The position numbers were made by a program, and so were the translations under genes. The notes beneath the pieces are model-generated. The model saw nothing but the letters and a program-made list of their open reading frames with translations, was not told the DNA's origin and made no database searches. From positions 2,046,001 through 2,110,000 of the forward strand of contig OX359190.1 in the NCBI GenBank assembly GCA_947172415.1: DNA of 64,000 nucleotides, read 5' to 3'. Below are positions 13,734-50,268 of this stretch, one piece after another. Source of the DNA: Chondrosia reniformis. Lineage: Eukaryota > Porifera > Demospongiae > Chondrillida > Chondrillidae. The stretch's first letter is position 1. The number at the start of each line of letters is the position of its first letter.

Positions 13734-16700
13734 ATGAACAAAGATAAAGTGAGGTTACTTAATTGTCTCTTGTAAGTAAAAGATGGGCGGAGCCGCCCGG
13801 AATCGAACGGTCTGACTGCGTCTCCTACACTCATTTAAAAAGACACAGGCTATAGATCTGAAATACTTAAAGCGTTGGGATGAGTCTAATCGTAGAACAG
13901 ATATCGCAAGTGAACCTGCTTTGTCGGGACGTAGCTGGCATATCTTTACAGAGACTGTAGTTTCTGTTCGATTGGGTTTGTTTAGACTGTAGTTTTAAAC
14001 CAGTCGACTATACGTATAAAGACACAAGCGATTCATATCCTTTTAAGGGACAATTTAGAAAGCGAGAAACTGATTCCGTAATCTTTTCCATAACTGAATA
14101 GCCATTCTGTTGCTCTACTGGTGGGAATTACTTTATCACTGTATATTCGTACGTTATGAAGTTTACTAACTTGAGTACTGTATGAGCCATGCATGCACGT
14201 TAAGACAAGATTTACGTTAAGAATATTTAGACAAGAAGATTTACGGCACTTACAGACCTCAAAGTGTTCTTACAATAAGCTGCTACAGAACTTGCTCCTT
14301 CCATGTCATTCAGTTCCTCCAAACAGTGAATATTATCTTTTCTTTCTTCTCTCTAATTAGGTATTTCGCAGTGACCTCCTGACAGCTGGAGGAGGTCACT
14401 TCCTCAAACCAACTAAAATACCGGAAATGCCTATTGGAATCAGTTATGGCAAAGCTGTTGTCATCAATCAAAGAGTATTTGTCAGCGGAGAGCAGAGAGG
14501 AGAAAAGATAGTTCAGATTTACGATGTTAAAACCAATAAATGGTCAACACTACCTCCATCTCCGTATTCTCGTAGAGGAGCCACCATCATAAATGATCAG
14601 TTAACTCTGATAGGAGGTTGGGACACTCATTACACTCCTACAAACAAGCTAGCGACATGGACAGGTGAAGAATGGTTAGAGCTATATCCTCCAATGCACA
14701 ATGCCCGATCCGATCCAGGCGTTCTTGCTATTGGAGACTTAGTAATTGTGTCTGGAGGAGCAGGTAACCAACAAGTAGACACAATTGAATTCCTGGATGT
14801 TAAGAATAGAATGTGGATACAGTCGAATATGAAACTTCCTCGTCCATTAGCGGAACACCACATGGCATTGTGTGGTAAATACATTTACATCTACTACTAC
14901 TTCGGTGGATATTTTTGGAGAATGAATAAGAAGAATTTTATGGCTTCACTTACCAATAATGATGTACATCACTGGGAACAGCTCGAGGATGCACCAGAGT
15001 ACAGTTCACTTTTACAATACAGCACCCTACCAGTCATAGTAGGTCCAGATGGAATCTTTATTTTCGAGAAGAAGAAGTGGACACAAATTAGTGAAGAAAT
15101 GTCTTCTTACAACACCTGTACGGCTTCCCTCAACGGAACTACGTTTCTCACCATTGGAGGAGGAGACTATATGACAAGAGCTGTACAGTATGATATTGTA
15201 GTTAAGGTTAGTAACTTATTTAATTACAAAACATTACATTTAAGTATTAAGAAGTCTTGTTAATATTCGTTGCGCGTTTCGCCTGCACTTTCTCCTTCAA
15301 ATAGAAACATTAGAAGGTTTTATTTACTTCGTTAGAGTCACCTAACTTGTGCGCTCAGTGTACATGAAGCGCGTGTCAATGCTAACAAGACTTGTATTGT
15401 TTTAAGTTCTCGTACGAGTGTGTTCTACGAGCGCTCTCACGAGTTTAAGTGTTAACTTGATTCCACTAACGAAGACTGTTAAGTCTTCTTGCTCTTAGCA
15501 TTTGAAGGAGAGTGTGTACGTTTTATAAATGTGTAAAAATTTTAAAACGGTTTCTTGTCGCGCTACACATGTAATTTAAGAGAAAGTAGTTTTATAGAAG
15601 TGCTAAGTTGTAAATCGGCATTTAGACCTACACTTGGAATTAATTTAACGTCCTGTGCACGTTCGTTTGATTAGTTATAACTATGCAGTAGTGTTGGTTG
15701 TAGACACAATTAATAAACTACTTCCTCAACAGTAAATTGCTACAAAGTTTATTAGGCAGTCTGAAGTCGGCCATTTTACCAGTAAATAGACCAAAAATAG
15801 TCGTCAGCGTCTTAGGCAGATGATTATTACTTGTATTTAAAGAGATGTTGCTTTCTTAAATTAGGTTTTCCTTGTTAAAATTAGTATATGAAAGATAAAT
15901 AACGGCAAATAGATTTGTCAGTGAGAATTATTCATATAATTATATTAGGATTTTAAGTATACGTAACTATAGGAATAATTGTAAGTTGACATTTTACTTT
16001 ACAGCCAAAAATAGGACAGCTAGGTACTACGTATACAGCTAGGTGCTACATATACAGCTAGGTACTACATATACAGCTAGGTACTGCGTATACAGCTAGG
16101 TACTACATATACAGCTAGGTACTACATATACAGCTAGGTACTGCGTATACAGCTAGGTACTACATATACAGCTAGGTACTGCGTATACAACTATGTACTA
16201 CATATATGAATATTGACTTATTGACTCCTACAATGACTTGAGATGTGTTTGTTTCATACAGTATAATTGAACCATAACTTTAAATAGTTTGAATACTTTT
16301 TTTATAAAATGCTATTCCAAAGCTGTAGTGTACGTAGGTGTATAAGAGTATTAACATGTATTCTTAGGAGGGAGACACTAGCTTGAAGGAGGGAGACGCT
16401 AGCTTGAAGGAAGGAGACGCTAGCTTGAAGGAGGGAGACACTAGCTTGAAGGAGGGAGACACTAGCTTAAAGGAGGGATACACTAGCTTGAAGGAGAGAG
16501 ACAGTAGCTTGAAGGAGGGAGACACTAGCTTGAATGAGGGAGACACTAGCTTGAAGGAGGGAGACACTAGCTTGAAGGAGGAAGGCGCTAGCTTGAAGGA
16601 AGGAGACAGTAGCTTGAAGGAGGGAGACAGTAGCTTGAAGGAGGGAGGCACTAGCTTGGGGGATGAATTTATCATATTCAAGGTAGATTTATTGAACGTT

Positions 16701-19700
16701 TATTTTGAAATTTTCAACTGATATATTGTCATGTTGTAGGAGAAGGAAATGAAGGAGAAGCAGACATTGATTGATCAAGTAGAGAGATTGAAGCAATCTG
16801 AAAGAGAGTACGAACTAAAGGTCCAAGAACTTGAGGTTTGTCTTTTGACGTTTTGGACGTCTAAAGATGCAGTTTGGTAAATATTTTGTTGACAAAACGT
16901 TTACCAAACTGTGTCTTGAAGTTGTTAAATACAGACACATTGTTAAATAGAAAGGCCAATTGAAGTCTCATCCTGATTGGTGAAAGTACTGTAGTTCGGG
17001 AAATTTTCTTGGGAAAAATTTTCGTGTTAAAATATTTTCGTGGTCTGGGAGCTACCACGAGTGTTCTGCTGGTACTTCGGACGAAAGTGAGCCCTTTGGG
17101 TCCGGTAAACCGTCCTTGCACTGCAGGTATCGCAGTAGAGCCATTTTGGCTGCGCTCAGCTGTGTTGCGTTTACATATACGTAGATTGTACAACGTGTTA
17201 TTATTCGTTGTTAAAAAATTTCGTGCGATAAATTTTCGTGGTTTGAGCCAACCACGAAAATATTTTAACAACGAAAATTTCCCGAATTACGGTACATTGT
17301 AGACTAGAGAGCCAATAGTGCACTGACATTAGACATTATTTACAAATTTAATGAGTTTCACCTCTTGACTTGGGATCACAGCAAGTTAACACATCTCATG
17401 TATGTACGTATAGATACGTATTATGCTAGTCTGTTGAGAATACATTTACCAGATGCATTGAGTACCGAAATATCTGGTGTTCATCTTTTTAATGTACTTT
17501 TTATGAAGCAAATTGAATTTAGTACCTATCACTGATTAATTCCTTCCACAAGTGTTTGAAATTTGTTTAAATCTTTCTACAAAATGCTACATCTCACTTC
17601 CATTGATATATGCTCTGTTGTGTGTATATATAGACAGAAGTAGCTGATTTGAGCAGCAAAGGAACAGAGACACAACAGAAAATCATTGGACCTCTTGAGG
17701 TATGAAGACACTGGAGAGGATTTATAAATGTGTTCTTTGACTCGCATGTTCTTTATACTGTAGGAGAGGATAGCTGAACTGAATAGAGAACTGAGAGACA
17801 CTCAGAAAGAAAATCTACACCTGAAAGAATGTGATTTGAAGGAGTCCAACATTGACTTAAAGGAATCTAACATTGAATTAAAGGAATCCATTTCAGAATT
17901 GAGGAAAACAAATTCAGATTTAAGGGATTCCAATAGCCAGACTATTGTAAGTATCACTGTTGTGATCAATACATATTATGTTATTTAATTTACTTGTCTA
18001 ATCTTCTTATTGTAGGAGAGGATAGCTGAACTGACCAGTGAACTGAGAGACGCTCAAACGAATGTAGCTGAACTGACAAGTGAAATGAGAGACGCTCAAA
18101 CGAATGTAGCTGAACTGACCAGAGAACTGAGAGACACTCAGAAAGACAACCTACATCTGAAAGAACGTAATTCAGATTTGAAGGAGTCCAACATTGAATT
18201 AAAGGAATCCATTTCAGAATTGAGGAAAACAAATTCAGATTTAAGGGATTCCAATAGCCAGACTTCTGTAAGTATCACTGTTGACATGTTATCAATACAT
18301 GTGTTATTTAATTTACTTGTCCAATCTTCTTATTGTAGGAGAAGTTCGCTGAACTGACCAGTGAACTGAGAGATGCTCATAGGAATGTAGCTGAACTGAC
18401 CAGTGAACTGAGAGACGCTCAAAGGAATGTAGCTGAACTGACCAGTGAACTGAGAGACGCTCAGAAAGACAATCTACACCTGAAAGAACGTAATAGTGAT
18501 TTGAAGGAGTCCAACAGCCAGTCTACTGTGAGTGTCACTGTTGACATGTAATGAATATGGTTTTTGATCAACCCTCTTATATTGATGTAGGAGAAGTTGG
18601 CTGAACTGACCAGAGAACTGAGAGACACTCAAAGAAATATAGCTGAAGTAACCAGAGAATTGAAAGATACTCAAACGAATGTAGACAAACTAGAACTTTC
18701 CAAAAGGCACCTGAAAGAACGTATCAATGACTTAAATAAAACCAATTCTCTTCTGGGTGAAGGCAATTCAGAATTGAAGGTAATCCATTGTTTTGACATC
18801 TAGATTTCTTATTTTCATGTACATATATAGTGATAGGTGTATTAATGAGCTGAATGAACACTGTATGTAACATGTGAATGTGTTATTGCATGTTAATTAT
18901 AGATGGAACTTTGTATGTATATACATATAATATGTACGCGTACATGTACGTATATGTCAGAAACATTCACAACTAGTAACTGATTGACAAGACATCTATG
19001 TACTGCAATGTAGACTAGACTACAGCAGCAACAGCAAAGTACAGAAAGAGTTGCAGAGTTACAAGAGGAGAACATCAAACTGAGAGAAGAGAAGGTATTT
19101 CATTTCACTATTACTATACATGGGAGTATGGGTACTTCCTTTTAACATGTTTTTCTCAACTACCATAAAGGGTAGAGTGTAATAATTTAGGACAACTCAT
19201 CTAACGTTGCTAACCTTAATTATGTCCCAAATTATCCTATGCTACACTATATGGACATACATAGTTACTTACTCCTGCAGAATCACTGGATCTGCAATAT
19301 ACACCTTTTAGTTAAACCAGTGCATTATGAAATAGTAATATAAGTACAGTCTGTCTACATTGATAGTAAGCGTGATATATGAATATCATTATTGAACAAG
19401 AAATGGTCTCTCTTTCAAACACCTTGTATCATCTGTGGAATAGACTGTTACAGATTTTTAGAGCTTTTCTTCTAATATTTAGAAAACTGTTCATTCTTCT
19501 TATTTTTACTTGTGTAGAGCTTTCTTGAAGGTTCCTTGAAAGAAACTGAAGACAGAAGGAAAGCTTTGGAAGAAGAGAAGGCTAAAACTGAAAAGCAAGC
19601 TGAAGAGTTGAGGAGTAACATGTTGGGAAAGGTGGAAGGATTTGGTGCCATGTTAGAAGAAATGAAGAAATCATTAGACATGTTGGAAGGTTAGTTTTTG

Positions 19701-20578
19701 CAGTCATTATTTTCCAAAGAAGTGTGGACTTGTAAATTGAGCTATTTGATTCATTTCCACTATTTAGAAAAGCAAAGCAAAGGAGAATTAATGAGGTGAG
19801 TTTTATGTAAATCTTTAATGTAGAATATTGGATGATGTTGTTATAACTTATTTTTGTCCCTAAAAACCTTATTACAAAACATCCAACAATAAGTAGTGTG
19901 AAATGTGTCTTTAAATGCTCACCAATTTGTTGAAAAGATGATGAAAGGAGGGAGCATTTTAACCATCTATACCGTAGAATCATCCCCATGCTGTACCAAA
20001 AGTACTTTATTGGTTTAGAATGGACATTTTGCTTTGCAGCCTAAACAGCCAACCACCTGGTACCTGCCCCCCCTCCCCCATGATTCATAGTATATTATGT
20101 TCTATTAATTAGAAGTCTTATAGACTAGAATTCTGTATCATATTTGTCCTTAAAATATTCTTCAGAATATTCTACAATAAATTACATGTGTCCATGGATA
20201 CTCATAAGATTATTAAAAGGTGCATGATGTACATATCTACGAATTAAGTATTTTATTGCTTTCCACAGCACTGAACTTACAACCAGACACATGGATGTGC
20301 TGCTGAGAAATGTCATTGATAAAGTTCCTCAAAAATGGGAGGAAATTGCAATTTGCCTTCAATTTGAGGACAATAAGATAGCGTCACTTAAAGATGGAAA
20401 TTTAAAAATTGAAGAACGATGTAGAGCCATGCTGAGGTCTTGGCTAAGACAAGATAAAGATACTGGTAGCCGGCCAAGGACCTTGAAAACCTTGTACAAT
20501 GCACTTGTGGATCGAGACTGTAAACCTGAGGCACTTAAACTTGTAGAAGAAGTGAAGGGACACGTGGAGAAGGAATGA
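13734..20578 (+). CDS. KCD2: Kelch–heptad coiled-coil–Death protein, complete
   Basis: Predicted exons: 13734–13748 (MNKDK), 14361–15206 (Kelch), 16368–16682 (15 heptads), 16740–16835, 17634–17699, 17764–17946, 18016–18267, 18339–18527, 18591–18779, 19014–19094, 19518–19689, 19768–19795 and 20269–20578; about 913 residues, all joins in frame. The 282-residue Kelch exon shows six motifs (KTNKWSTLPP, GEEWLELYPP, FLDVKNRMWIQS, FWRMNKKNF, FEKKKWTQI, FLTIGGG), consistent with a six-bladed propeller. The C-terminal domain (KVPQKWEEIAICLQFEDNK) is a Death domain. The heptad exon has a 3' splice site and no ATG, so it needs an upstream coding exon; the Kelch exon is nearest, in phase, with a conserved donor (gttagt). 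The Kelch–heptad join is still inferred. Exon 16740–16835 was shortened by a deletion and appears to use a gtttgt donor. Confidence 0.7.
13749..14360 (+). other. First intron of KCD2
   Basis: About 610 bp between the MNKDK exon and the Kelch exon. It is strongly conserved among units and contains gggcggagccgccc, a GC-rich palindrome, beside a GTTCGATTCC element on the minus strand. No open frame is kept. It could also include untranslated exon sequence. Confidence 0.5.
16016..16207 (+). repeat. 19-bp minisatellite in the Kelch–heptad intron (unit B)
   Basis: About ten tandem copies of the acagctaggtactacatat repeat, following the same ttttactttacag acceptor as in unit A. The order of tacatat and tgcgtat variants differs from unit A, so the two arrays have been remodelled independently. 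Confidence 0.9.
16368..16682 (+). repeat. 21-bp coding VNTR: 15 heptads (KCD2)
   Basis: A 315-nt exon of fifteen exact heptads, ending in a variant of DEFIIFK. It is the longest version in the window. Variants include EGYTSLK, ERDSSLK and EEGASLK. Frame and heptad register are kept throughout. Confidence 0.9.
16989..17292. mobile_element. MITE with TA target duplication (unit B)
   Basis: 304-bp element flanked by TA (16987–16988 and 17293–17294) in a KCD2 intron. Units A, C and D show the uninterrupted site. The ends are inverted repeats: ctgtagttcgggaaatttt against ccgtaattcgggaaatttt on the other strand. Subterminal inner repeats (ttaaaatattttcgtgg and ccacgaaaatattttaa) give strong foldback. 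No coding capacity is recognised; the 97-residue frame inside is not conserved. TA target and ends suggest mobilisation by a Tc1/mariner-type transposase. Related to the copy at 59281–59657. Confidence 0.9.
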
Positions 20579-21220: not shown

Positions 21221-21896
21221 ATGATGACTGGAGCTGCAGGTCTTGAAGAGACAGTAGGACTCCGACTAACTGCTGTGACTACTAAACTTTGCAGTATACC
21301 TAGTTTTCCACTGTTCGTTGGTTACTGAAGATTCCGTTAATATTGCACAATTTGACTTGCTTTGTGGCGAGTGTATACACGTTCGTTGCTGGAGTGTACG
21401 CATTGACAACAACACCGTCTTTGCTCACTGTTTCCGAAGGAAACTCGAACGTTATCCACGTCTTATATGCATATTGGATAAGCAAGGTGATTGAACTCTT
21501 GGATACCGTATTTATTACCTTTGGACACAAGAAACGGCAGCTAACGGCGCTTCATGTTTTTCATCACTCGAGTATGCTCTGCTCCTTGCAGATTTTGCTT
21601 ACAGCAGGACGCGTTGGACTCCAATATCAGTCGGTTTCACCATTAATTCCTTTGTGCACATAGTCATGTACAGCTATTACAACCTAGCAACCTTCTACAG
21701 CCTCAGCTCAGCATGGTGGAAGAAAGGAGTGACACAGCTGCAGATTATCCAGTTTTTGTTTGTTATTTATATGGGAGTTAATGGCTACGTGAACTACGGG
21801 TATTGTATTTATTCCATTATTTATCCAGTAGCAATCTTATTATTCTTTATGAACTTTTACTATAATACCTACTTATCCAAAAGATTCAAGAAGTAG
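21221..21896 (+). pseudogene. ELOVL-B: fatty acid elongase, multiply broken
   Basis: Second elongase copy. A 55-bp deletion at about 21327 removes the first membrane-region codons and creates an immediate TGA. A 2-bp insertion at about 21578 (gctctgctcc for gctgctcc) shifts the frame again just after the HVFHH box. The 3' frame with NLATFYSLSSAWW and TQLQIIQF resumes at 21654 and ends at 21896. The candidate promoter block is also missing. No functional enzyme can be made. Confidence 0.9.
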
Positions 21897-25755: not shown

Positions 25756-26330
25756 CTTTAATGTTATAACCTCTCAAATGTTATAACCTCTCTAGTGTGA
25801 CCACCTCTCTAATGTTATAACCTCTCCAGTGTTACTACCTCTCTAGTGTGATCACCTCTCTAATGTGACCACCTCTCTAATGTGACCACCTCTCTAGTGT
25901 GACCACCTCTCTAATGTGACCACCTCTCTAATGTGACCACCTCTCTAATGTGACCACCTCTCTAATGTGACCACCTCTCTAATGTGACCACCTCTCCAGT
26001 GTGACCACCTCTCTAATGTGACCACCTCTCTAATGTGACCACCTCTCTAATGTGACCACCTCTCTAATGTGACCACCTCTCCAGTGTGACCACCTCTCTA
26101 ATGTGACCACCTCTCCAGTGTGACCACCTCTCTAATGTGACCACCTCTCTAATGTGACCACCTCTCTAATGTGACCACCTCTCCAGTGTGACCACCTCTC
26201 TAATGTGACCACCTCTCTAATGTGACCACCTCTCTAATGTGACCACCTCTCTAATGTGACCACCTCTCCAGTGTGACCACCTCTCTAGTGTGACCACTTC
26301 TCTAGTGTGATCACCTCTCTAATGTGACCA
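25756..26330. repeat. 17-bp minisatellite, about 34 copies (unit B)
   Basis: Same repeat as at 11298–13163 (gtgaccacctctctaat) but about a third of the length. The gttataacc variants cluster at the left edge. The array is missing from units C and D. Confidence 0.95.
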
Positions 26331-26359
26331 TACTAAAAACTTAAACGTGTTCCATATGC

Positions 26360-26894: not shown

Positions 26895-29800
26895 ATGAAC
26901 AAAGATAAAGTGAGTTTACTTAATTGTCTCTTGTAAGTAAAAGATGGGCGGAGCCGCCAGGAATCGAACGGTCTGACTGCGTCTCCTACACTCATTTAAA
27001 AAGACACAGGCTATAGATCTGAAATACTTAAAGCGTTGGGATGAGTCTAATCGTAGAACAGATATCGCAAGTGAACCTGCTCTGTCCGGACGTAGCTGGC
27101 ATATCTTTACAGAGACTGCATGTAGTTTCTGTTCGATTGGGTTTGTTTAGACTGTAGTTTTAAACCAGTCAACTATACGTATAAAGACACAAGCGATTCA
27201 TATCCTTTTAGGGGACAAGTTAGAAAGCGAGAAACTGATTCGTAATCTTTTCCATAACTGAATAGCCATTCTGTTGCTCTACTGGTGGGAATTACTTTAT
27301 CACTGTATATTCGTACGTTATGAAGTTTACTAACTTGACTACGTATGAGCCATGCATGCACGTTAAGACAAGATTTACGTTAAGAATATTTAGACAAGAA
27401 GATTTACGGCACTTACAGACCTCAAAGTGTTCTTACAATAAGCTGCTACAGAACTTGCTCCTTCCATGTCATTCAGTTCCTCCAAACAGTGAATATTATC
27501 TTTTCTTTCTTGTCTCTAATTAGGTATTTCGCAGTGACCTCCTGACAGCTGGAGGAGGTCACGTCCTCAAACCAACTGAAATACCGGAAATACCTATTGG
27601 AACCAGTTTTGGCAAAGCTGTTGTCATCAATCAAAGAGTATTTGTCAGCGGAGAGCAGAGAGGAGAAAAGATAGTTCAGATTTACGATGTTAAAACCAAT
27701 AAATGGTCAACACTACCTCCATCTCTGTATTCTTACAGTGGAGCCACCATCATAAAGGATCAGTTAACTCGGATAGGAGGTTTGGACACTCATACAAACA
27801 AGCTAGTGACATGGACAGGTGAAGAATGGTTAGAGCTATATCCTCCAATGCACACTGCCCGATCCTGGCCAGGTGTTCTTGCTATTGGAGACTTAGTAAT
27901 TGTGTCTGGAGGATTTGGAGCAGATGGCAGAGATGTAGACACAATTGAATTCCTGGATGTTAAGAATAAAAAGTGGATCCAGTCGAATCTGAAACTTCCT
28001 AGACCATTATCAGGACACGACATGGCATTGTGTGGTGAATACATTTACATCTACCACCACGGCGGATATTTTTGGAGAATGAATAAGAAGAATTTTATGG
28101 CTTCACTTACCAATAATGAAGTACATCACTGGGAAGAGCTCGAGAATGCACCAGTGAACAGTTCACTTTTAAAATACAGCACTCTACCAGTCCTAGTAGG
28201 TCCAGAAGGAATCTTCATTTTCGAGAAGAAGAAGTGGACACAAATTAGCAAAGAAACATCTTATCCCAACACCTGTACGGCTTCCCTCAACGGAACTACT
28301 TTTCTCACATTTGGAGGAAGTAGAAGAGGACAATTACAGACAAGAGCTGTACAGTACGATATTGCAGTTGAGGTTAGTAACTTATTATATTACAAAACAT
28401 TACATTAAAGTATTAAAAAGTCTTGTTAATATTCGTTGCGCGCTTCGCGTGCACTTTCTCCTTCAAATAGAAACATTAGAAGGTTTCATTTCCTTCGTTA
28501 GAGTCACCTAACTTGTGCGCTCAGTGTACACGAAGCGCGTGTCAATGCTAACAAGACTTGTATTGCTTTAAGTTCTCGTACGAGTGTGTTCTACGAGCGC
28601 TCTCACGAGTTTAAGTGGTAATTTGATTCCACTAACGGGGGCTGTTAGAAGTCTTCTTGCTCTTAGCATTTGAAGGAGAGTGTGTACGTCTTATAAAAGT
28701 GCCAAGTTTTAAAACGGTTTCTTGTCGCGCTACGCATGCAAAGGAAAGAGAAAGTAGTATTATAGAAGTGCTATAAGTTGTAAATCGGCATTTAGACCTA
28801 CACTTGGAATTAATTTAACATCCTGTGTACGTTCGTGTGATTAGTTATAACTATGCAGTAGTGTTGGTTGTAGACACAATTAATAAACTACTTCCTCAAC
28901 AGTAAATTGCTACAAAGTTCATTTGGCAGTCTAAAGTTTGACCAGTGAAAAATAGTCGTCAGCGTCTTAGGCAGATGATTATTACTCGTATTAAGGAGAT
29001 GTTGCTTTCTTAAATTAGGTTTTCCTTGTTAAAGTTAGTGTATGAAAGATAAATAAAGGCAAATAGATTTGTCAGTGAGAATTATTCATATAATTATATT
29101 AGGATTTTAAGTATACGTAACAACTATAGGATTGTAAGTTGACATTTTACTTTACAGCCAAAAATAGGACAGCTACGTATACAGCTAGGTACTGTGTATA
29201 CAGCTAGGTACTGCGTATACAGCTAGTTACTGCGTATACAGCTAGGTACTGCGTATACAGCTAGTTACTGCGTATACAAATATTGACTTATTGACTCCTA
29301 CAATGACTTGAGATGTGTTTGTTTCGCACAGTATAATTGAACCATAACTTTAAATAGTTTGAATACTTTTTCTATAAAATGCTATTCCAAAGCTGTAGTG
29401 TACGTAGGTGTATAAGAGTATTAACATGTATTCTTAGGAGGAAGACACTAGCTTGAAGGAGGGAGGCACTAGCTTGGAGGAGGGAGACACTAGCTTGAAG
29501 GAGGGAGACACTAGCTTGAAGGAGGGAGTCGCTAGCTTGAAGGATGAATTTATCATTTTCAAGGTAGGTTTGTTGAAAGATTATTTTGATATTTTTTCAA
29601 CTGATATATTGTCATGTTGTAGGAGAAGGAAATGAAGGAGAAGCAGACATTGATTGATCAAGTAGAGAGATTGAAGCAATCTGAAAGAGAGTACGAACTA
29701 AAGGTCCAAGAACTGATGAAGAGAAACACTCAGTTGAAGGTACGGTATCCTACTGTAACACCTCCCACACCTCTGCTGATTTAACCTGGCTGGATGTATT

Positions 29801-32800: not shown

Positions 32801-32989
32801 CTTAAGGGTGGAAATTTAAACAATGAGGGACCATGTAAAGATATGCTGAGATCTTGGCTGAGACAAGATAAAGATACTGGTAGCCGGCCAAGGACCTTGA
32901 AAACCTTGTACAATGCACTTGTGGATCGAGATTGTAGACCTGAGGCAGATAAGCTTGTAAAAGAAGTGAAGGGACTGAAGAAGGAATGA
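26895..32989 (+). CDS. KCD3: Kelch–heptad coiled-coil–Death protein, complete, shortest stalk
   Basis: Predicted exons: 26895–26909, 27524–28372 (Kelch, 283 codons), 29438–29563 (6 heptads), 29623–29739, 30423–30488, 30552–30740, 30812–30991, 31158–31238, 31719–31869, 31945–31972 and 32683–32989; about 702 residues, phases consistent. The Kelch exon lacks the internal ATG of KCD2 (ATA instead), which supports translation from the upstream MNKDK exon. Propeller loops differ from KCD2 (GGFGADGRDVD, YHHGGYFWRM, GGSRRGQLQTR). Exon 30812–30991 joins the start of one coiled-coil exon to the end of the next (SNSQST then LHLEERIN), so the intron between them has been deleted in frame. The Death domain (VDMVPQKWEEIAICLHFGD) is closest to that of KCD1. 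Confidence 0.7.
29167..29278 (+). repeat. 19-bp minisatellite in the Kelch–heptad intron (unit C)
   Basis: About six copies of the acagctaggtactgcgtat variant, shorter than in units A and B. Some units read acagctagttactgcgtat, which removes the ggt. Confidence 0.85.
29438..29563 (+). repeat. 21-bp coding VNTR: 6 heptads (KCD3)
   Basis: A 126-nt exon of six heptads including EEDTSLK, EGGTSLE and EGVASLK, closed by DEFIIFK. Phase 0 at both ends. Confidence 0.9.
31551..31608. repeat. Perfect 22-bp hairpin in a KCD3 intron
   Basis: Arms 31551–31572 and 31587–31608 are exact reverse complements around a 14-nt loop (ctaggccaaaatgc). Unit A has the same hairpin with two arm mismatches; units B and D lack it. 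Confidence 0.85.
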
Positions 32990-38634: not shown

Positions 38635-38659
38635 CTTTAACTTAAACGTGTTCCATATG

Positions 38660-39204: not shown

Positions 39205-42200
39205 ATGAACAAAGATAAAGTGAGTTTACTTAATTGGTCTCTTGTAAGTAAAAGATGGGCGGAGCCGCCTGGAATCGAACGGTCTGACTGCGTCTCCTGC
39301 ACTCATTTAAAAAGACACAGGCTATAGATCTGAAATACTTAAAGCGTTGGGTTGAGTCTAATCGTAGAACAGATATCGCAAGTGAACCTGCATGCTCTGT
39401 CGGGACGTAGCTGGCATATCTTTACAGAGACTGTAGCTTCTGTTCGATTGGGTTTGTTTAGACTGTAGTTTTAAACCAGTCGACTATACGTATAAAGCCA
39501 CAAGCGATTCATATCCTTTTAGGGGACAAGTTAGAAAGCGAGGAACTGATTCCGTAATCTTTTTCATAACTGAATAACCATTCTGTTCCTCTACTGGTGG
39601 GAATTACTTTATCACTGTATATTCGTACGTTATGAAGTTTACTAACTTGACTACGTATGAGCCATGCATGCACGTTAAGACAAGATTTACGTTAAGAATA
39701 TTTAGACAAGAAGATTTACGGCACTTACAGATCTCATGCAAAGTGTTCTTACAATAAGCTGCTACAGAACTTGCTCCTTCCATGTCATTCAGTTCCTCCA
39801 AACAGTGAATATTATCTTTTCTTTCTTGTCTCTAATTAGGTATTTCAAAGTGACCTCCTGACAGCTGGAGGAGGTCACATCCTGAAACCAACTGAAATAC
39901 CGGAAGTGCCTATTCGAACCAAATTTACTAAAGCTGTTGTCATCAATCAAAGAGTATTTGTCTGCGGAGAGCAGATAGTTCAGATTTACGATGTTAAAAC
40001 CAATAAATGGTCAACACTATCTCCGAATTCTTTCGGTGGAAGTGGAGCCACCATCATAAAAGATCAGTTAACTCTGATAGGAGGTACAGACACTCATCGC
40101 ACTCGTACAAACAGGCTAGCGACATGGACAGGTGAAGAATGGTTAGAGCTATATCCTCCAATGCACAATGCCCGATCCGATCCAGGTGTTCTTGCTATTG
40201 AAGACTTAGTAATTGTGTCTGGAGGAGGAGCAGATCGCAGAGAAGTAGACACAATTGAATTCCTGGATGTTAAGAATAGAATATGGACCCAGTCGAATCT
40301 GAAACTTCCTCGACCATTATCAGCACACCACATGGCATTGTGTGGTGAATACATTTACATCTACTACTTCTGGAATGGATATTTTTGTAGAATGAATAAG
40401 AAGAATTTTATGGCTTCACTTACAACAAATGATGTACATCACTGGGAAGAGCTCGAGAATGCACCAGTGAACAGTTCGCTTTTACAAAACAGCACCCTAC
40501 CAGTCCTAGTAGGTCCAAAAGGAATCTTCATTTTCGAGAAGAAGAAGTGGACACAAATTAGTGAAGAAACATCTTATGGCTTAAATTGTACGGCTTCCCT
40601 CAACGGAACTACATTTCTCACCATTGGAGGACTACGAGGAGGACAATATCAGAAAAGAGCTGTACAGTACGATATTGCAGTTAAGGTTAGTAACTTATTT
40701 AATTACAAAACATTACATTTAAGTATTAAAAAGTCTTGTTAATATTCGTTGCGCGTTTCGCCTGCACTTTCTCCTTCAAATAGAAACATTAGAAGGTTTT
40801 ATTTCCTTCGTTAGAGTCACCTAACTTGTGCGCTCAGTGTACATGAAGCGCGTGTCAATGCTAACAAGACTTGTATTGTTTAAGTTCTCGTACGAGTGTG
40901 TTCTACGAGGGCTCTCACGAGTTTAAGTGGTAATTTGATTCCACTAAAGAAGACTGTTAAGTCTTCTTGCTCTTATAGCATTTGAAGGAGAGTGTGTACG
41001 TTTTATAAAAGTGCCAAGTTTTAAAACGGTTTCTTGTCGCGCTACACATGTAATTTAAGAGAAAGTAGTTTTATAGAAGTGCTAAGTTGTAAATCGGCAT
41101 TTAGACCTACACTTGGAATTAATTTAACATCCTGTGTACGTTCGTGTGATTAGTTAAAACTATGCAGTAGTGTCGGTTGTAGACACAATTAATAAACAGT
41201 TCCCAAACAGTAAATTGCTACAAAGTTTATTTGGCAGTCTAAAGTCGGCCATTTGACCAGTGAAAAATAGTCGTCAGCGTCTTAGGCAGATGATTATTAC
41301 TCGTATTAAAAAGATGTTGCTTTCTTAAATTATATTGTTAAGTATATGAAAGATAAATAAAGGCAAATAGATTTGTCAGTTGTCATAGAACCATAACTTT
41401 GAATGGTTTGAATACTTTTTTTTATAAAATGCTATTCCAAAGCTGTAGTGTACGTAGGTGTATAAGAGTATTAACATGTATTCTTAGGAGGGAGACACTA
41501 ACTTGAAGGAGGGAGACGCTAGCTTGAAGGAGGGAGACGCTAGCTTGAAGGAGGGAGACGCTAGCTTGAAGGAGGGAGATACTAGCTTGAAGGAGGGAGG
41601 CGCTAGCTTGAAGGAGGGAGACACTAGCTTGAAGGAGGGAGATGCTAGTTTGAAGGAGGGAGACAGTAGCTTGAAGGATGAATTTATTATTTTCAAGGTA
41701 GGTTTGTTGAAAGTTTATTTTGATATTTTCAACTGATATATTGTCATGTTGTAGGAGAAGGAAATGAAGGAGAAGCAGACATTGATTGATCAAGTAGAGA
41801 GATTGAAGCAATCTGAAAGAGAGTGCGAACTAAAGGTCAAAGAACTGATGGAGAGAAACACTCAGTTGAAGGTACGGTATCCTACTGTAGCACCTCCCGC
41901 ACCTCTGCTGATTTAACCTGGCTGGATGTATTAACACTGCCTGCACACAACATCACTAGTTATCCACCAGTTTACACCTAATAGAGTAAGGATTACTTCT
42001 GTAACTGCTTCCAACTTATCTCTTGATGGTTCGTCTTTTGACTTTTTGGACATCTAAAGACGCAGTTTGGTAAATATATTGTTGACAAAAGGTTTACCAA
42101 ACTGTGTCTTTAGATGTCAGAAGATGAACCATCCAAAAGATACAGTACATATGGGACATACAGACACTTTGTTAAATAGAAAGGCCAATTGAAGTCTCAA

Positions 42201-45200
42201 CCTGACTGGTGAAAGTACATTGTGGACTAGAGAGCCGATAGTGCACTGACATTACACATTATTTACAAATTAATGAGTTCCACCTCTTGACTTTGGTTTA
42301 TAGGAATCTACTGCAAGTTAACACATCTCATGTATGTACATAGATATGTTTGTATGTTACCACTGCTAGTCTGTTGGGAATGCCTAATTTCCAATATATA
42401 TTCAGTATCTTAAGATCTGGTGCTTAATGTGTCCACCTTTTTAATGTACTTTCTAAGATGCAATTTTGAATTAACTGTGTAGTTTAATTCTCTTTTACAA
42501 AAGTATTTGAAATTTGTTGAAAGCTTTCTACAAATGCTACATCTCACTTCCATTGATATATGCTCTGTTGTGTGTATATACAGACGGAAGTAGCTGATTT
42601 GAGCAGCAAAGGAACAGAGACACAACAGAAAATCATTGGACGTCTTGAGGTATGAAGACACTGGAGAGGATTTATAATGTGTTATTTGACTTACAGGCTC
42701 TTAATACTGTAGGAGAAGATAGCTGAACTGACTAGAGAACTGAGAGACACTCAGAAAGACAATCTACACCTGAAAGAACGTAATACAGATTTAACGGAGT
42801 CCAATAGCCAGTCTACTGTGAGTGTCACTATTGACATGTAATGAATATGGTCTTTGATCAACCCTTTTTGATGTAGGAGAAGATGGCTGAACTAACTAGA
42901 GAACTGAGAGACACTCAGAAAGACAATCTACACCTGAAAGAACGTAATACAGATTTAACGGAGTCCAATAGCCAGTCTACTGTGAGAGGCACTATTGACA
43001 TGTAATGAATATGGTCTTTGATCAACCCTTTTTGATGTAGGAGAAGATGGCTGAACTAACTAGAGAACTGAGAGACACTCAGAAAGACAATCTACACCTG
43101 AAAGAACGTAATGCAGATTTAATGGAGTCCAACAGCCAGTCTACTGTGAGTGTCACTATTGACATGTAATGAATATGGTCTTTGATCAACCCTTTTTGAT
43201 GTAGGAGAAGATGGATGAACTAACTAGAGAACTGAGAGACACTCAGAAAGACAATCTACACCTGAAAGAACGTAATGCAGATTTAACAGAGTCCAACAGC
43301 CAGTCTACTGTGAGTGTCACTATTGACATGTAATGAATATGGTCTTTGATCAACCCTTTTGATGTAGGAGAAGATGGCTGAACTAACTAGAGAACTGAGA
43401 GACACTCAGAAAGACAATCTACACCTGAAAGAACGTAATACAGATTTAATGGAGTCCAATAGCCAGTCTACTGTGAGAGGCACTATTGACATGTAATGAA
43501 TATGGTCTTTGATCAACCCTTTTTGATGTAGGAGAAGATGGATGAACTAACTAGAGAACTGAGAGACACTCAGAAAGACAATCTACACCTGAAAGAACGT
43601 AATGCAGATTTAATGGAGTCCAACAGCCAGTCTACTGTGAGTGTCACTATTGACATGTAATGAATATGGTCTTTGATCAACCCTTTTTGATGTAGGAGAA
43701 GATGGATGAACTAACTAGAGAACTGAGAGACACTCAGAAAGACAATCTACACCTGAAAGAACGTAATGCAGATTTAACAGAGTCCAACAGCCAGTCTACT
43801 GTGAGTGTCACTATTGACATGTAATGAATATGGTCTTTGATCAACCCTTTTGATGTAGGAGAAGATGGCTGAACTAACTAGAGAACTGAGAGACACTCAG
43901 AAAGACAATCTACACCTGAAAGAACGTAATACAGATTTAATGGAGTCCAATAGCCAGTCTACTGTGAGAGGCACTATTGACATGTAATGAATATGGTCTT
44001 TGATCAACCCTTTTTGATGTAGGAGAAGATGGATGAACTAACTAGAGAACTGAGAGACACTCAGAAAGACAATCTACACCTGAAAGAACGTAATGCAGAT
44101 TTAATGGAGTCCAACAGCCAGTCTACTGTGAGTGTCACTATTGACATGTAATGAATATGGTCTTTGATCAACCCTTTTTGATGTAGGAGAAGATGGCTGA
44201 ACTAACTAGAGAACTGAGAGACACTCAGAAAGACAATCTACACCTGAAAGAACGTAATGCAGATTTAACAGAGTCCAACAGCCAGTCTACTGTGAGTGTC
44301 ACTATTGACATGTAATGAATATGGTCTTTGATCAACCCTTTTGATGTAGGAGAAGATGGCTGAACTAACTAGAGAACTGAGAGACACTCAGAAAGATAAT
44401 CTACACCTGAAAGAACGTAATGCAGATTTGAAGGAGTCCAACATTGACTTAAAGGAATCTAACATTGAATTAAAGGAATCCATTTCAGAATTGAAGAAAA
44501 CACATTCGGATTTAAGCAGCCAGACTACTGTAAGTATCACTTTGTTGACATGTTATCCATACATGTTACATATAGTTACTTATCCAATCTTCTTATTGTA
44601 GGAGAAGATGGATGAACTGACTAGAGAACTGAGAGACACTCAAAGGAATGTAGACAAACTAGAATGTTCCAAAGTACACCTGGAAGAGCGTATCAATGAC
44701 TTAAATAAAACAAATTCTCATCTGGAGAAAACCAATTCTCTTCTGGAAGCAGGAAATTCTGATTTGAAGGTAATCCACTATTTTGACATGTAGATTTCTT
44801 ATTTTCATATATGTGTTAATGAGCTGAATGAACACTGTATGTAACATGTGAATGTGTTATTGCCTATTAATCTTAGATGGCACTTTGTAAGTATATGTAT
44901 GTATATAAATATGAGATACATTCACAACTAGTAACTGATTGACAAGACATCTATGTACTGCAATGTAGACTAGACTACAGCAGCAACAGCAAAGTACAGA
45001 AAGAGTTGCAGAGTTACAAGAGGAGAACATCAAACTGAGAGAAGAGAAGGTATTTCATTTCACTATTACTATACTCGGGAGTGATTATGGGTACTTCCTT
45101 TTAACATGTTTTACTAAACTACCATAAAGGGTAATAATTTGGGACAACTCATCTGACATTGCTAACCCTAATTATGTCCCAAATTATCCTATGCTACACT

Positions 45201-48200
45201 ATATGGACATACATAGTTACTTACTCCTGTAGAATCACTGGATCTGCAATATACACCTTTTAGTTAAACTAGTGCATTATGAAATAGTAATATATGTACA
45301 GTCTGTCTACATTGATAGTAAACGTGATATATACGTAAGTATTATGAATATCTTTATTGAACAAGAAATGGTCTCTCTTTCAAACACCTTGTATCAGCTG
45401 TGGAATAGACTGTTACAGATTTTTATAGCTTTTCTTCTAATATTTAGAAAACTGTTGATTCTTCTTATTTTTACTTGTGTAGAGCTTTCTTGAAGGTTCA
45501 TTGAAAGAAACTGAAGACAGAAGGAAAGCTTTAGAGGAAGAGAAGGCTAAAACTGAAAAGCAAGCTGAAGAGTTGAGGAGTAACATGTTGGGAAAGGTTG
45601 AAGGATTTGGTGCCATGTTAGAAGAAATGAAAAAATCATTAGATGTGTTGGAAGGTTAGCTTTTGCAGTCATTTATTTTGCAAAGAAGTGTACTAGACTT
45701 GTTAATTGAGCTATTTGATTCATTTCCACTATTTAGAAAAACAAAGCAAAGGAGAATTAATGAGGTGAGTATGTACGTATAAGCAATTCATTAATCTTTA
45801 AGTTGGTCCTGATACAATAGTCTATTACATTTGACTTGTAGCTATTTCTACTCATCAGATATAGAGTAAACCTCACCACTGACAATAGTCTACAGGTGTG
45901 AAGGAAGCTAGTAATTTGACTTTAGTTGGGCAAAGTTGTTATTACATGTTTCTGAAAATATTGAGATTAAACTGAAAGAAATATAGAGACTAAACTGACT
46001 CAAATTTGAATGGAGACTGGAATTATTGTCAATGTTATTTTAGTAAAGTTTTTAGTCCAAAAGAACCTGTACTAAACCACTTATGGTTAGTTTGTGTAAT
46101 ACAGTCAATTTTAAGAGAACTGAGGCTCTTGCTAATTCCTTCACCAGTAAGTCTTCCTGCTTTTAAATTAATTGTACTCAAATTGTTTGCTCACCATTTG
46201 AAGGGTCTGCCAGACCACCTCTGCAGTCCCTGATCTCTGACTAATGTACACCAGTTAACTGGGCCAGTTGACTACGGTACAAATTATAAAAAAGTTAACG
46301 TTCAACGGGCGTGCATACTAAAACGTAAGGGTTACAAACGGGTACGGGTACGGGCGTAGATAACGAAACGTACGGATCCGAGTTAGGTCGATCGACGGGC
46401 GTAGGGGAGAAAACGTACGGGTGTACACGATAAAAGTGTTAATTCTTTGAACATTCTTGTTTTCTACGTCACGAGGTGATACGTGTTAAATTCGTTAATC
46501 TTAAGGTGTAACATTGGTGCGCTATCAGTTCTTGAGTCGATAAATCTCCTTCACGCTTCAAGATGAGTCTTCGATTGGCCCTAAAAGTATCGCATGAACA
46601 AGCAGGTGAGCTATCTTTTCGTATTACGTCAAAAATGTACTGCACGTTATGTCGCAACCTCTGACTTCTTTCCACAGACGATTTTGCGCTGGTGCATTGG
46701 CCTGAAGAGGACTGCGTCAGCATGGTAGAAATCGCTAAATTCACGAGTCCCTGCCCTCCTGTTGTTGGCAATGGCTGCCAAGTTTTAGTCGGAAAGAAGA
46801 TTTACTCAGGTGTGACTGTGGCTATAGGTGTGTTCAACGGTTATTTTATCGATTATCGATAATCGTAGGCTACGTATATATAGACTCTGCACCCTCTACT
46901 GAACATAACCAACCAATAACTTACAGGTTCTCAAAAGGCAATGACGGATTTGGAAAATAACTATTTGAATGGATGCTTCGAAATTCCCATAATGCAAGAA
47001 AATAGACAGACAACACCCAAGATAAGTCAGCCTTCAACTCCCAAGACCAGTGAGACACACATGGATGGATGCATTGACATTGCTCCAATGCAAGAAAATG
47101 AACAAATAACACCCAAGGCAAGCCAGTGTAAGAACATAAAAAAGCGTGTGGCATTGGCTGAAATTAACACCAATACCAATACTGAAGAGTCCGCAGATGT
47201 AGAAGGGAATACAGGTGAAAAACCAAAGAGAAGGAAAAGGAATAGCAAGACAAAGGAAAAGAAAAATGAAGAAACTGGTGTGATACTGGATCTGGCAGAG
47301 TTTGATGAGGCTCAGAAAACCACCATTGCTGAAGAGTCCGCAGATGTAGAAGGGAATACAGGTGAAAAACCAAAGAGAAGAAAAAGGAATAGCAAGACAA
47401 AGGAAAAGAAAAATGAAGAAACTGGTGTGATACTGGATCTGGCAGAGTTTGATGAGGCTCAGAAAACCACCATTGCTGAAGAGATGAGGAGAGACTTAAA
47501 GAAAATTGTAGAAAATAACATGAAGATTGAAAAATCCATGGAAATAATGCAGAGGAGTATGAAAGAAATGATTGAAAAGGAACAGATGATGCAGAGGAGA
47601 ATGGAAGAAATGATTGAAAAGGAACAGATAATGCAGAGGAGTATGGAAGAAATGAAGGAACAGATGATGCAATTACAGCCAGCATATTCACAGCCAATTT
47701 CAGACATATTAAATTTTCCACAATTGCCTTCATTTAACTTTGGTGAAACAGAGCCTCAGATGTCACCTGTGATGCTGACTGCTTCTACACCTGGTCCAGC
47801 ATCATTCGAGAAAACTACAGAGTCACCTATGATGCTGGCTGCCTCTACACCAACATCCCTACCTCTCCAGAAAGAGTCACCTGTGATGTTCACTACACCT
47901 ATTCCCATTACCAAGGTCAGCAGTAAATTCACTGAACTGCCATCAAGTGAGATTAACAAACAACAACTTCAGAGTATACATGATGTATTGGAGAAACATA
48001 CTGCATTGCGTACTGAATGTAAACTAGGAGTGCTAGCTGTCAAATTAGCCAGAGAAGCAATATTTGGTGACCCAATCTTAAGAAGATGCACACCAAGAGG
48101 GTGGAATGATACCCCCGCATTGCCACAAGCAGAACTAAATTTACTTAAAACCATTCTCTTTGAGCAATTTCCACGTTTTTGGTCTTGCCCGGAAGAATAT

Positions 48201-50268
48201 GAAAAAAAATGGGTTGTTGCCCAAGAAGCAATTGCTCAAGCCTGTAAGAGGCTTAGGAAGAAACTGTGAACTAACTGTATTTGATAGTAACCTACATTTT
48301 ATTATGTATAGTTTTAATTAAAAAATATTATTATTATTAATTTACTGTAACTGTATTATTAAATACTTTGGTCACAGCAATACTTAAACCTCGTACCCAC
48401 TCTGGCTGGCTGAAATATGATATTTTGCTGTATGATAAATTATTGACTTTAATTTAAAGAAATACACTAATACTACGTATAACAGTATAATAATAAAATT
48501 CTAAGAGTATAAACTTTCTTTTTAATAGCCCGTTGCACTTCCTTCACACTCTATAACAGCCGGAATAACTTTCTTCAGGTGTCCAATGTACCTCTGGCAC
48601 TTGTCAGCAGTCACTGTTGCCCAAAATTCTTTTATTCCATCGATGAGCTCTTGCTTTGTTTTTGGCTTTTTTTCTCTCCGAATGTACTCCTTTAACTCAT
48701 GCCAGAGGTTTTCAATCGGATTTAAATCAGGAGACTCTGGAGGAGTGGGCCACCAGTTTATTCCTGCTTCACTGTAGAAATCTCTGGCTGCCTTGGAACA
48801 ATGTTTCGGGTCATTATCTTGGACAAAGCGATGGCCATCAGGATAAACTTCCTTAATGAATGGTAAAAGTGATGCCTTTAAAATAGAAATATAAAGAGGA
48901 GCATTCATTTTTCCTTCGAAAATACATAAGTTAGTTCGACCACGATGGCTGATCCCTGCCCAGACATGAACTTTTAGGGGATGTTTCGGTTTGGGTTTGT
49001 ATCTGGGCTTCTGTCCTCTCTTATAGCAGCAAGTCCTACGATGTGTCTCGATTTGCACTGTAGTTTCATCTGTATAGATGAGGTCTTCAAAGGACATGTC
49101 TTTATTCAGTTTTGCCCACTCCAATCTCTTCTGTTTGTTAACGTCTCTGATCATTTGGCAGTACCTGGTGCCTTTTGAAGTCCATCCAATATCATTTCGC
49201 CACTTCAAGACGGTAGATGTAGCAACTTGAATACCACTTTTACCCAATAAATTCTTTAATTCCATTCCTGTTGTCTCATCGTCTTTGTTCATTTGATCTT
49301 CGATGATTCTCTCAGCATCTTCTGTAAATTTCGAAGCCATACCACTTCCAGGCTTACGAGAGATTGTGCCTGTTTCTTGATAGCGACTTACGAACTTGTA
49401 TACGCCAACCTTCGTGGCTTTAAGCCCTTCGTCAGCTAAACATCGAACGATTTCACCGTAGCTCTTCCCCAAACGGCGGTAAGACAGAATCCTTTGTTTA
49501 ACATAATCGGAATAAACCATTTTTACACTTGAAACGATACTAAATGAAACTCGAAAAAGTGTGACATTCTAAATAATTATCGCCATACCCATACGTTCTG
49601 TAGCTACGGGCGTATTTGTCGAAACGTACGCATCCCTACAAAGGATGTATATGGGCGTTCTGTCTAACACGTACGGGTTTAATATCGGCGCACGTACGGG
49701 TTGCGAGCAGGCGTTGACCGTTAACTTTTTTATAATTTGTACCGTATGTACACAGGAAGATTAATTCTCTAATTTTATTCATTACTCTTTAATGATATTC
49801 ATAAAGTATGTCTCATAGACTAGAATTCTGTGTTATTATGTCCTTATAATATTCACTCAGAAATTCTACAATAGATAATATGAAATGTGTCCGTAGACAC
49901 TCCTAAAAGATGCATGATGTACGTATCTACGAATTAAGTATTTTATTACTTTCCACAGCACTGAACTCACAACCAGACATATGGATGTGTTACTGAGAAA
50001 GGTCATTGATAAAGTTCCTCAGAAATGGGAGGAAATTGCAATTTGCCTTCAGTTTGAGGACAATAAGATAGCCTCACTTAAGGACACAAAGTTAAACAAT
50101 GAGGGACTATGTAAAGCCATGCTGAGATCTTGGCTGAGACAAGAAAAGGAGTCTGGTAGTCGGCCAAGGACCTTGAACACATTGTATAAAGTCCTGGTGG
50201 ATCGAAACTGTAAACTTGAGGCAAAGGAGCTGGTGGAGGCTGTGAAGGGACATGTGGAGAGGGAATGA
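39205..50268 (+). CDS. KCD4: Kelch–heptad coiled-coil–Death protein with amplified stalk exons
   Basis: Predicted exons: 39205–39219, 39840–40685 (Kelch, 282 codons), 41488–41697 (10 heptads), 41755–41871, 42584–42649, ten 105-nt exons from 42713 to 44291, 44350–44529, 44602–44769, 44969–45049, 45483–45654, 45737–45764 and 49959–50268; about 1080 residues, all phases consistent. The ten repeated exons encode 35 residues each (EKMAELTRELRDTQ... ending SNSQST), i.e. five heptads. The last intron contains a complete 3470-bp transposon, which should not affect the protein if spliced. The Death domain (KVPQKWEEIAICLQFEDNK) matches KCD2. Propeller loops are distinct (GGTDTHRTRTNR, FWNGYFCRM, GGLRGGQYQKR). 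Confidence 0.7.
41488..41697 (+). repeat. 21-bp coding VNTR: 10 heptads (KCD4)
   Basis: A 210-nt exon of ten heptads, first unit EGDTNLK, last DEFIIFK. Phase 0 at both ends; otherwise EGDASLK and EGDTSLK types. Confidence 0.9.
42713..44349 (+). repeat. Ten-copy 163/164-bp exon–intron tandem array
   Basis: Exons start at 42713, 42877, 43041, 43205, 43368, 43532, 43696, 43859, 44023 and 44187, each 105 nt, separated by introns of 58–59 bp that begin gtgagtg or gtgagagg and end ttgatgtag. An eleventh, longer exon starts at 44350. Variants (gctgaac/gatgaac; acagattt/gcagattt; gtgagagg donor; one T fewer before gatgtag) recur every third copy, so copies 2–10 are three repeats of a 491-bp trimer. 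Every copy adds 35 residues in frame and in heptad register. Confidence 0.95.
46563..48269 (+). CDS. BEN-domain-like passenger protein of the Tc1/mariner element
   Basis: Three-exon gene inside the transposon: 46563–46605 (MSLRLALKVSHEQA), 46678–46809 and 46927–48269; the splice sites are gtgag/ccacag and gtgtga/ttacag and all joins are in phase, giving about 505 residues. Exon 2 encodes a compact N-terminal module (FALVHWPEEDCVSMVEIAKF, then VGNGCQVLVGKKIYSG). The middle is Lys-rich with a perfect 49-residue tandem duplication (about 47184 and 47331), followed by a coiled-coil of QRSMEEM-type repeats and a Pro/Ser/Thr-rich linker. The C-terminal ~90 residues (LAREAIFGDPIL, LPQAELNLLKTILFEQFP, AIAQACKRLRKKL) resemble a BEN DNA-binding domain. 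A role in binding the element's ends or chromatin is inferred. The tail-to-tail gap to the transposase is 252 bp. Confidence 0.7.
48522..49520 (-). CDS. Tc1/mariner (IS630-type) DD34E transposase
   Basis: Intact 332-residue single-exon transposase, normal length for the family. The N-terminal helix-turn-helix region (YGEIVRCLADEGLKATKVGV) binds the inverted repeats. Catalytic triad: D151 in YTDETTV, D235 in QDNDPKH and E270 in SPDLNPIENLW, with 34 residues between the last two, i.e. DD34E. The flanking TA duplication fits. The start lies 224 bp inside the right end of the element. Confidence 0.95.
   Translation of the reverse strand: MVYSDYVKQRILSYRRLGKSYGEIVRCLADEGLKATKVGVYKFVSRYQETGTISRKPGSGMASKFTEDAERIIEDQMNKDDETTGMELKNLLGKSGIQVATSTVLKWRNDIGWTSKGTRYCQMIRDVNKQKRLEWAKLNKDMSFEDLIYTDETTVQIETHRRTCCYKRGQKPRYKPKPKHPLKVHVWAGISHRGRTNLCIFEGKMNAPLYISILKASLLPFIKEVYPDGHRFVQDNDPKHCSKAARDFYSEAGINWWPTPPESPDLNPIENLWHELKEYIRREKKPKTKQELIDGIKEFWATVTADKCQRYIGHLKKVIPAVIECEGSATGY

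Follow-up and report, generated by a model that had tools for sequence, protein, structure and literature searches.

Chromosome 2 of the sponge Chondrosia reniformis carries a tandem array of genes that probably encodes a large receptor family for recognition in the cytosol, whose members diversify fast and signal through death-fold assembly; we put the probability of this reading at about 0.68. The receptor reading is suggested by the site of variation, by the parts that are conserved and by the nature of the effector halves. Within the window, by which we mean the whole 64-kb stretch of DNA analysed (C2:2046001-2110000 of the assembly), the order Kelch, heptad, coiled coil, Death is the same in three complete units (B, C and D), in the tail of a fourth (A) and in the head of a fifth (E). 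Each unit is composed of a 5-codon ATG exon, a Kelch exon, a heptad exon, a series of coiled-coil exons and a C-terminal Death exon, located in window positions as follows:

719..4594, + strand: unit A, tail only (heptad exon 719-949, coiled-coil exons 1073 to 3578, Death exon 4288-4594)
13734..13748, + strand: unit B exon 1, MNKDK, donor GTGAGG (splice model; a like exon in 24 of 30 Kelch loci)
14361..15206, + strand: unit B Kelch exon, 282 codons, phase 0-0 (Pfam Kelch_1, AlphaFold2 propeller)
16368..16682, + strand: unit B heptad exon, 15 x 21 nt, phase 0-0 (splice model)
16740..16835, + strand: unit B coiled-coil exon cca, 3' end missing relative to units A, C and D, donor GTTTGT less certain (splice model)
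17634..17699, + strand: unit B coiled-coil exon ccb (splice model)
17764..17946, + strand: unit B coiled-coil exon cc1 (splice model)
18016..18267, + strand: unit B coiled-coil exon cc2 (splice model)
18339..18527, + strand: unit B coiled-coil exon cc3 (splice model)
18591..18779, + strand: unit B coiled-coil exon cc4 (splice model)
19014..19094, + strand: unit B exon cc5 (splice model)
19518..19689, + strand: unit B exon cc6, phase 0 to 1 (splice model; upstream in 29 of 30 Death loci)
19768..19795, + strand: unit B exon cc7, phase 1 to 2 (splice model; upstream in 29 of 30 Death loci)
20269..20578, + strand: unit B Death exon including the stop codon, acceptor phase 2 (PF00531, 31.5 bits, cut-off 22.6)
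26895..26909, + strand: unit C exon 1, MNKDK (exon model)
27524..28372, + strand: unit C Kelch exon (exon model)
29438..29563, + strand: unit C heptad exon, 6 x 21 nt (exon model)
29623..31972, + strand: unit C stalk exons 29623-29739, 30423-30488, 30552-30740, 30812-30991, 31158-31238, 31719-31869 and 31945-31972 (exon model)
32683..32989, + strand: unit C Death exon including the stop codon (PF00531, 27.2 bits)
39205..39219, + strand: unit D exon 1, MNKDK (exon model)
39840..40685, + strand: unit D Kelch exon (PF01344, 41.9 bits)
41488..41697, + strand: unit D heptad exon, 10 x 21 nt (exon model)
41755..42649, + strand: unit D exons 41755-41871 and 42584-42649 (exon model)
42713..44291, + strand: unit D, ten tandem 105-nt coiled-coil exons, one intron each (exon model)
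44350..45764, + strand: unit D exons 44350-44529, 44602-44769, 44969-45049, 45483-45654 and 45737-45764 (exon model)
49959..50268, + strand: unit D Death exon including the stop codon (PF00531, 27.2 bits)
61715..63730, + strand: unit E, head only (exon 1 61715-61729, MNEDK; Kelch exon 62336-63184; heptad exon start 63632)

In all three complete units the frame is open from ATG to stop across GT–AG introns of matched phase, and the joined proteins of 913 (B), 702 (C) and 1080 (D) amino acids are free of internal stops. This bears out the sequence-only reading, which had proposed an in-phase exon series from Kelch to Death in each unit. Its description of the heptad exon, with an acceptor and without a start codon, agrees with our splice model, and its claim that stalk length differs between paralogues holds as well: the heptad exon measures 231 nt in unit A, 315 in B, 126 in C and 210 in D, each a multiple of 21, and the extra length of the unit D stalk comes from its ten tandem 105-nt exons.

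Unit B consists of 13 coding exons, namely MNKDK, Kelch, heptad, nine more stalk exons (16740–19795) and Death, and the exon chains of units C and D are identical to it in kind. Nine internal exons of unit B are phase 0-0; the last junctions are phase-specific, because the chain ends with two stalk exons running from 0 to 1 and from 1 to 2 into a Death exon that accepts phase 2. The Kelch open reading frame of unit B reaches 15263 and the exon itself stops at 15206 (donor GTTAGT). This phase-0 donor is conserved among the Kelch exons, and the idea of a stand-alone Kelch gene was dropped, since the reading frame beyond the donor, with its terminal stop, is not frame-conserved.

Loci fetched from the genome repeat this pattern. 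Of 30 Death loci, 29 have the two exons that precede Death within 1.5 kb; only unit D, with an insertion in its last intron, departs from this. An AG acceptor stands at the phase-2 position in all 29 Death loci with a recognised exon start. The short ATG exon, matched in 24 of 30 Kelch loci, reads MN[KER]DK in 15 of 18 Death-type loci and MNVEN or MNKKN in 9 of the 12 others. Two Death exons in the cluster each appear as a pair of pieces, and 3 of the 30 fetched Kelch exons have broken frames; these three were left out of the Kelch alignment, and two of five loci added later repeated earlier ones. Splice signals, the phase chain, the genome-wide alternation described below and both domain profiles on the joined protein thus support a single family of Kelch–heptad–coiled-coil–Death proteins. 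As far as sequence evidence goes the unit structure is solid, and each unit would be expressed as a single transcript.

Exon by exon, Kelch_1 scored 36.5 and 41.9 bits in units B and D (cut-off 20.1), and the Death exons of B, C and D all exceeded the PF00531 cut-off of 22.6 (31.5, 27.2 and 27.2 bits). On the joined unit-B protein the two profiles lie in one frame of 913 residues (Kelch_1 31.6 bits, Death 25.2 bits), with matches to coiled-coil families between them; NACHT, LRR and BTB were absent from its 13 Pfam matches at E 0.001. AlphaFold2, given 30 paralogues as input, modelled the Kelch exon with a pLDDT of 89.0 and a pTM of 0.87, and the predicted strand pattern, from which alone the fold was read, fits six blades with an N-terminal closing strand. 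The best natural profile matches among solved structures include IVNS1ABP, KLHL3, KLHL2, KLHL12 and KLHL20. In the heptad exon and stalk hydrophobic residues recur with a period of 3.5, which none of 1000 shuffles reached; the EGDTSLK heptad, with a single leucine per seven residues, is weak for a classical coiled coil. Neither a signal peptide nor a membrane segment is apparent by eye in the gene model, and by the same inspection the protein is likely cytosolic.

The units of the window belong to a much larger family. The 117,379,552-bp assembly (15 contigs) contains at least 132 Kelch matches, and at least 104 places, five of them short (<700 nt), are at least 53% identical, with 99 of the 104 on chromosome 2. 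Scoring covered 131 of 239 Kelch candidates, 56 of 214 for Roc-COR and all 140 for Death, which makes the Kelch and Roc-COR numbers minimum values. The counts exclude four of the 132 Kelch rows, each the second piece of a split locus, and 21 of the 114 Death rows, of which two were second pieces and 19 the weakest. Between 1.86 and 2.20 Mb of C2, each of the 22 Kelch places is followed by a same-strand Death exon before the next Kelch.

Elsewhere a second class of effector takes the place of the Death half. A large Roc-COR-like exon lies 0.8–7.3 kb downstream of a same-strand Kelch exon in 55 of 56 scored copies, none of which falls within the Death cluster at C2:1.86–2.21 Mb. Among scored candidates, the 104 Kelch places divide into at least 54 with Roc-COR only, 28 with Death only (C2:2810283 being doubtful among these) and one with both; neither effector matched at the other 21, at least one of which (C2:783647, fetched as L073) has Roc-COR, so that part of these misses stems from the limit on candidates scored. 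Two candidates for a mixed Kelch–Death gene in the Roc-COR clusters were dropped: at C2:2840770 a Roc-COR exon precedes the Death exon, and at C2:2810283 the following intron is closer to the Roc type than to the Death type. In five units fetched from other clusters, the window's Death and coiled-coil exons had no match, and the large exon was followed by a CARD-like exon in all five; its frame is broken in L071 and open over 776-803 codons in the other four. In some units of this class a short linker exon could be recognised as well.

The identity of the second effector half is suggested by motifs and profiles. A P-loop and a DTGGQ motif are invariant in the four aligned copies of the large exon, and COR-A and Roc match all four, with best E values of 1.2e-4 and 0.0096 that are below the Pfam cut-offs; CARD (PF00619) matches two of six CARD-like exons, likewise below its cut-off (best E 2.8e-4). 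The search for relatives of the Roc-COR exon among PDB sequences found none, and among the scanned exons none was recognised as encoding a kinase. Each of the two effector halves accepts phase 0, and in the Roc-COR class the same Kelch donor joins a phase-0 Roc-COR acceptor. As the Kelch exon is phase 0-0 and two effector types lie downstream of it, one Kelch exon appears to serve two death-fold signalling halves. An origin of the two classes by a single effector swap was set aside, in that the Kelch tree needs two label changes and a single one is compatible with 2% of bootstrap trees. This tree contains only two sequences of the 0.77–1.5 Mb clade, 2 of its 15 Roc labels (L031, L037) were assigned by clade and place only, and gene conversion blurs it, so one swap or several may have taken place.

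More distant Kelch arrays occur on two other contigs. On C14 (0.60-1.09 Mb) an array of Kelch reading frames is 34-37% identical to the window Kelch, and on C7 a diverged array shows 31–33% identity. At about 6.093 Mb of C7 a CARD-like exon (L074:3012-3392) lies approximately 3.3 kb downstream of one diverged Kelch copy and scores 23.7 bits against the CARD cut-off of 23.9. It is possible that these form a second Kelch-CARD family; the exon could end that gene or start the next.

Variation in the Kelch exon is localized. Alignment of 30 intact paralogues leaves 93 of 282 positions unchanged, whereas at several others at least eight different residues occur, and the most variable positions are paired in each of the six blades at a spacing of 15-19 residues (28/45, 71/87, 118/134, 165/180, 214/230 and 250/269). 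In the AlphaFold2 model these positions immediately precede strand A or follow strand B. When loops were delimited manually on the model's DSSP line, the DA and BC loops, which make up 91 of 282 residues, held 15 of the 16 sites with an entropy of at least 2.2 bits, and the AB and CD turns (48 residues) held none (Fisher p 2e-7). Kelch variability thus appears concentrated in two loops per blade, matching the ligand face of KLHL20-type propellers; the KLHL20 ligand contacts every one of the six DA loops and all but one of the six BC loops (PMC6720452).

Selection was assessed by counting methods rather than codon models, with sites chosen in one effector class and tested in the other, which avoids choosing and testing on the same data. 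Sites chosen in the Death type had a pN/pS of 2.72 in the Roc type (rest 0.60), and sites chosen in the Roc type had 1.63 in the Death type (rest 0.88); 14 of the 18 top variable sites were common to both classes, with 1.2 expected. The two classes share ancestry, so this hold-out is not fully independent. At the chosen codons of Death-type Kelch exons pS was raised as well (0.26-0.34 vs 0.08-0.09 elsewhere), and gene conversion or mutation bias may therefore add to the signal. Over the whole exon the Kelch ratio (omega) was only 1.05 and 0.83.

The effector exons, by comparison, are constrained and under clear purifying selection. Death exons gave a pN/pS of 0.40 (19 sequences) and 0.28 (5 sequences) and Roc-COR exons 0.40 (4 sequences), against 0.75 for Kelch in the four loci compared with Roc-COR. 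Divergence in introns (0.10-0.11) equals that in exons (0.10). Distances measured pairwise in one segment hardly correlate with those in the next (r -0.13 to 0.27, with a possible contribution of intron alignment noise), and this weak correlation suggests that gene conversion shuffles the Kelch repertoire.

Other explanations have to be weighed against these observations. We consider it very improbable that each unit holds two neighbouring genes, a Kelch gene and a coiled-coil–Death gene, that were duplicated together. The Kelch exon closes at a conserved phase-0 donor without a frame-conserved terminal stop, the heptad exon brings an acceptor and lacks a start, the same Kelch donor meets a phase-0 Roc-COR acceptor in the other class, and Kelch and Death alternate in 22 of 22 cases. 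There is equally little to recommend the view that the array consists of amplified, largely functionless repeats under relaxed constraint, whose apparent diversification stems from gene conversion. A whole-exon Kelch ratio near 1, three broken Kelch exons among 30 and equal divergence of introns and exons would fit such repeats, but purifying selection on the Death and Roc-COR exons is clear, 93 of 282 Kelch positions are invariant across 30 paralogues, and the excess of replacements is limited to two loops per blade that are common to both classes.

What the receptors would recognise is a separate question. The propellers may bind host proteins in the manner of KLHL proteins and regulate cell death or development, with no recognition of non-self. 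The nearest natural solved structures are indeed the IVNS1ABP and KLHL propellers, and KLHL20 binds a peptide of the DAPK1 death domain (PMC6720452); a set of about a hundred close paralogues that changed recently and mainly in loops nevertheless does not resemble stable substrate adaptors, the Kelch clusters are without a BTB match, and we regard this explanation as improbable. Somewhat less improbable, though still unlikely, is allorecognition, in which the receptors would read variable self or conspecific cues, as in graft rejection, and release their death-fold output at the contact zone. Sponges reject grafts, and a large tandem family with loop-focused diversification and little correlation across segments would suit such a role, but no exported or membrane-bound part is apparent by eye in the model. 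We favour intracellular recognition receptors with death-fold output. The recognition or immune-adaptor role put forward by the sequence-only reading gains strength from the loop-focused diversification of the propeller, the conserved effector exons, the Roc-COR/CARD-like second half and the kinship with Death–NACHT genes, to which we now turn.

At least 101 NACHT exons in the genome exceed the cut-off (101 of 139 candidates scored), and C7 holds a dense array of them at 0.9-2.8 Mb that looks like a large cluster of NLR genes. Among 60 diverged Death exons (<53% identity to those of the window), 22 lie 0.6-4.9 kb upstream of a same-strand NACHT exon, so the Kelch–Death genes seem to use a Death domain related to that of apparent Death–NACHT genes. 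When 62 of the at least 101 NACHT places were compared, the 39 left-out rows all being on C7, none came within 15 kb of any of the 33 close Death exons. With both NACHT and LRR absent from the joined unit-B protein (Pfam, E 0.001), the family falls outside the NLRs. Sponge NLRs (Death-NACHT-LRR and CARD-NACHT-LRR) also form large families whose signalling domain is a Death or a CARD, 25 Death-bearing and 20 CARD-bearing in Dysidea avara (PMC12909245), but they carry LRRs in place of the Kelch propeller, and the domain order is reversed, with Death at the C-terminus here.

Likenesses to Kelch and Roco proteins are similarly partial. BTB-Kelch proteins (KLHL, KEAP1, IVNS1ABP) share the six-bladed propeller, predicted in our case, and DA and BC loops as the ligand face (PMC6720452). 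The sponge Kelch clusters instead combine Kelch with C-terminal death-fold domains: with all 68 candidates scored, none of the 62 BTB matches in the genome falls in the window or the Kelch clusters, the closest on C2 being at 3.257 Mb, and in the gene model only a 5-codon exon stands before Kelch, where KLHL proteins have BTB. Brown-algal ROCO proteins (LRR-ROC-COR), proposed as immune receptors (PMC11378527), likewise join Roc-COR to a diversifying repeat sensor; that sensor is built from shuffled LRR exons rather than a single Kelch exon, and part of the sponge family has coiled coil and Death without Roc-COR. In some Roco proteins Kelch motifs flank Roc-COR, and DAPK1 combines Roc-COR with Death (PMC6320773). 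Dictyostelium Roco and DAPK1 thus resemble the sponge genes in having Kelch near Roc-COR and Roc-COR with Death, respectively; the sponge differs in its tens of copies and in that the exons scanned contain no recognised kinase. Kelch with Death and without Roc-COR lies outside the Roco scheme as set out in the accessible portion of that review (PMC6320773).

Exposure of Aplysina and Dysidea to microbial patterns is followed by changes in separate 'Kelch motif' and 'DEATH domain' transcripts (PMC6208332), which may be relatives of the Kelch–Death family. A literature search, with preprints and most subscription papers outside its scope, found no description of a Kelch–Death family, which is apparently undescribed. 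Its layout resembles that of NLRs and algal ROCO receptors, and it may best be regarded as a novel form of death-fold receptor acting inside the cell.

Several further features accompany the units. A gene copy that we take to be fatty-acid-elongase-like follows each of units A to D (window 6056-6355, 21495-21893, 34379-34738 and 51606-51902), and the duplicated segment therefore carries passenger genes. Another passenger of the tandem unit is a repeated minus-strand reading frame (7322-7696, 22889-23302, 35755-36258, 58138-58641 and 59980-60375), presumably fragments of an ATXN7L3/SGF11-type gene. The insertion in the last intron of unit D (45770-49810) contains a 449-codon repetitive frame (46920-48266) and, on the minus strand, a 348-codon frame (48525-49568) that we presume to be transposase-like. 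Arrays of a 17-bp tandem repeat lie upstream of unit B (11317-13161, about 108 copies) and unit C (25752-26330, about 34 copies), and a plus-strand open frame of 1316 codons (53069-57016) is found between units D and E.

We posit that each unit is one gene for a cytosolic receptor. Its N-terminal six-bladed Kelch propeller would bind a target through the DA and BC loops, whose residues differ between paralogues, the coiled-coil stalk of variable length would bring molecules together, and the C-terminal Death domain would nucleate a death-fold signalling assembly with a death or inflammatory output and, presumably, an immune purpose. The related Death domains of the Death–NACHT genes would be expected to nucleate likewise. 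In the sister clusters the same Kelch exon would stand before a Roc-COR-like GTPase exon and a CARD-like exon, so that the same sensor may feed a second death-fold output. Tandem duplication would have made the repertoire and gene conversion would have shuffled it. In a broader view, for which we hold the odds to be even, the family is a germline repertoire parallel to the NLRs, in which a symmetric Kelch exon, about a hundred binding faces and two interchangeable halves (coiled coil–Death or Roc-COR–CARD) are combined and new specificities are continually made by duplication and gene conversion.

The metagenome of C. reniformis is reported to be typical of a high-microbial-abundance sponge (PMC12181767). 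If our reading is right, intracellular death-fold receptors would have the Kelch propeller, besides LRR arrays, as a recognition module that evolves fast, and such receptors would be present in a phylum that was among the first to branch off in the animals. The way in which an animal densely populated by bacterial partners distinguishes these from intruders would then become testable, with defined loops, exons and two output domains on offer for binding and signalling assays.
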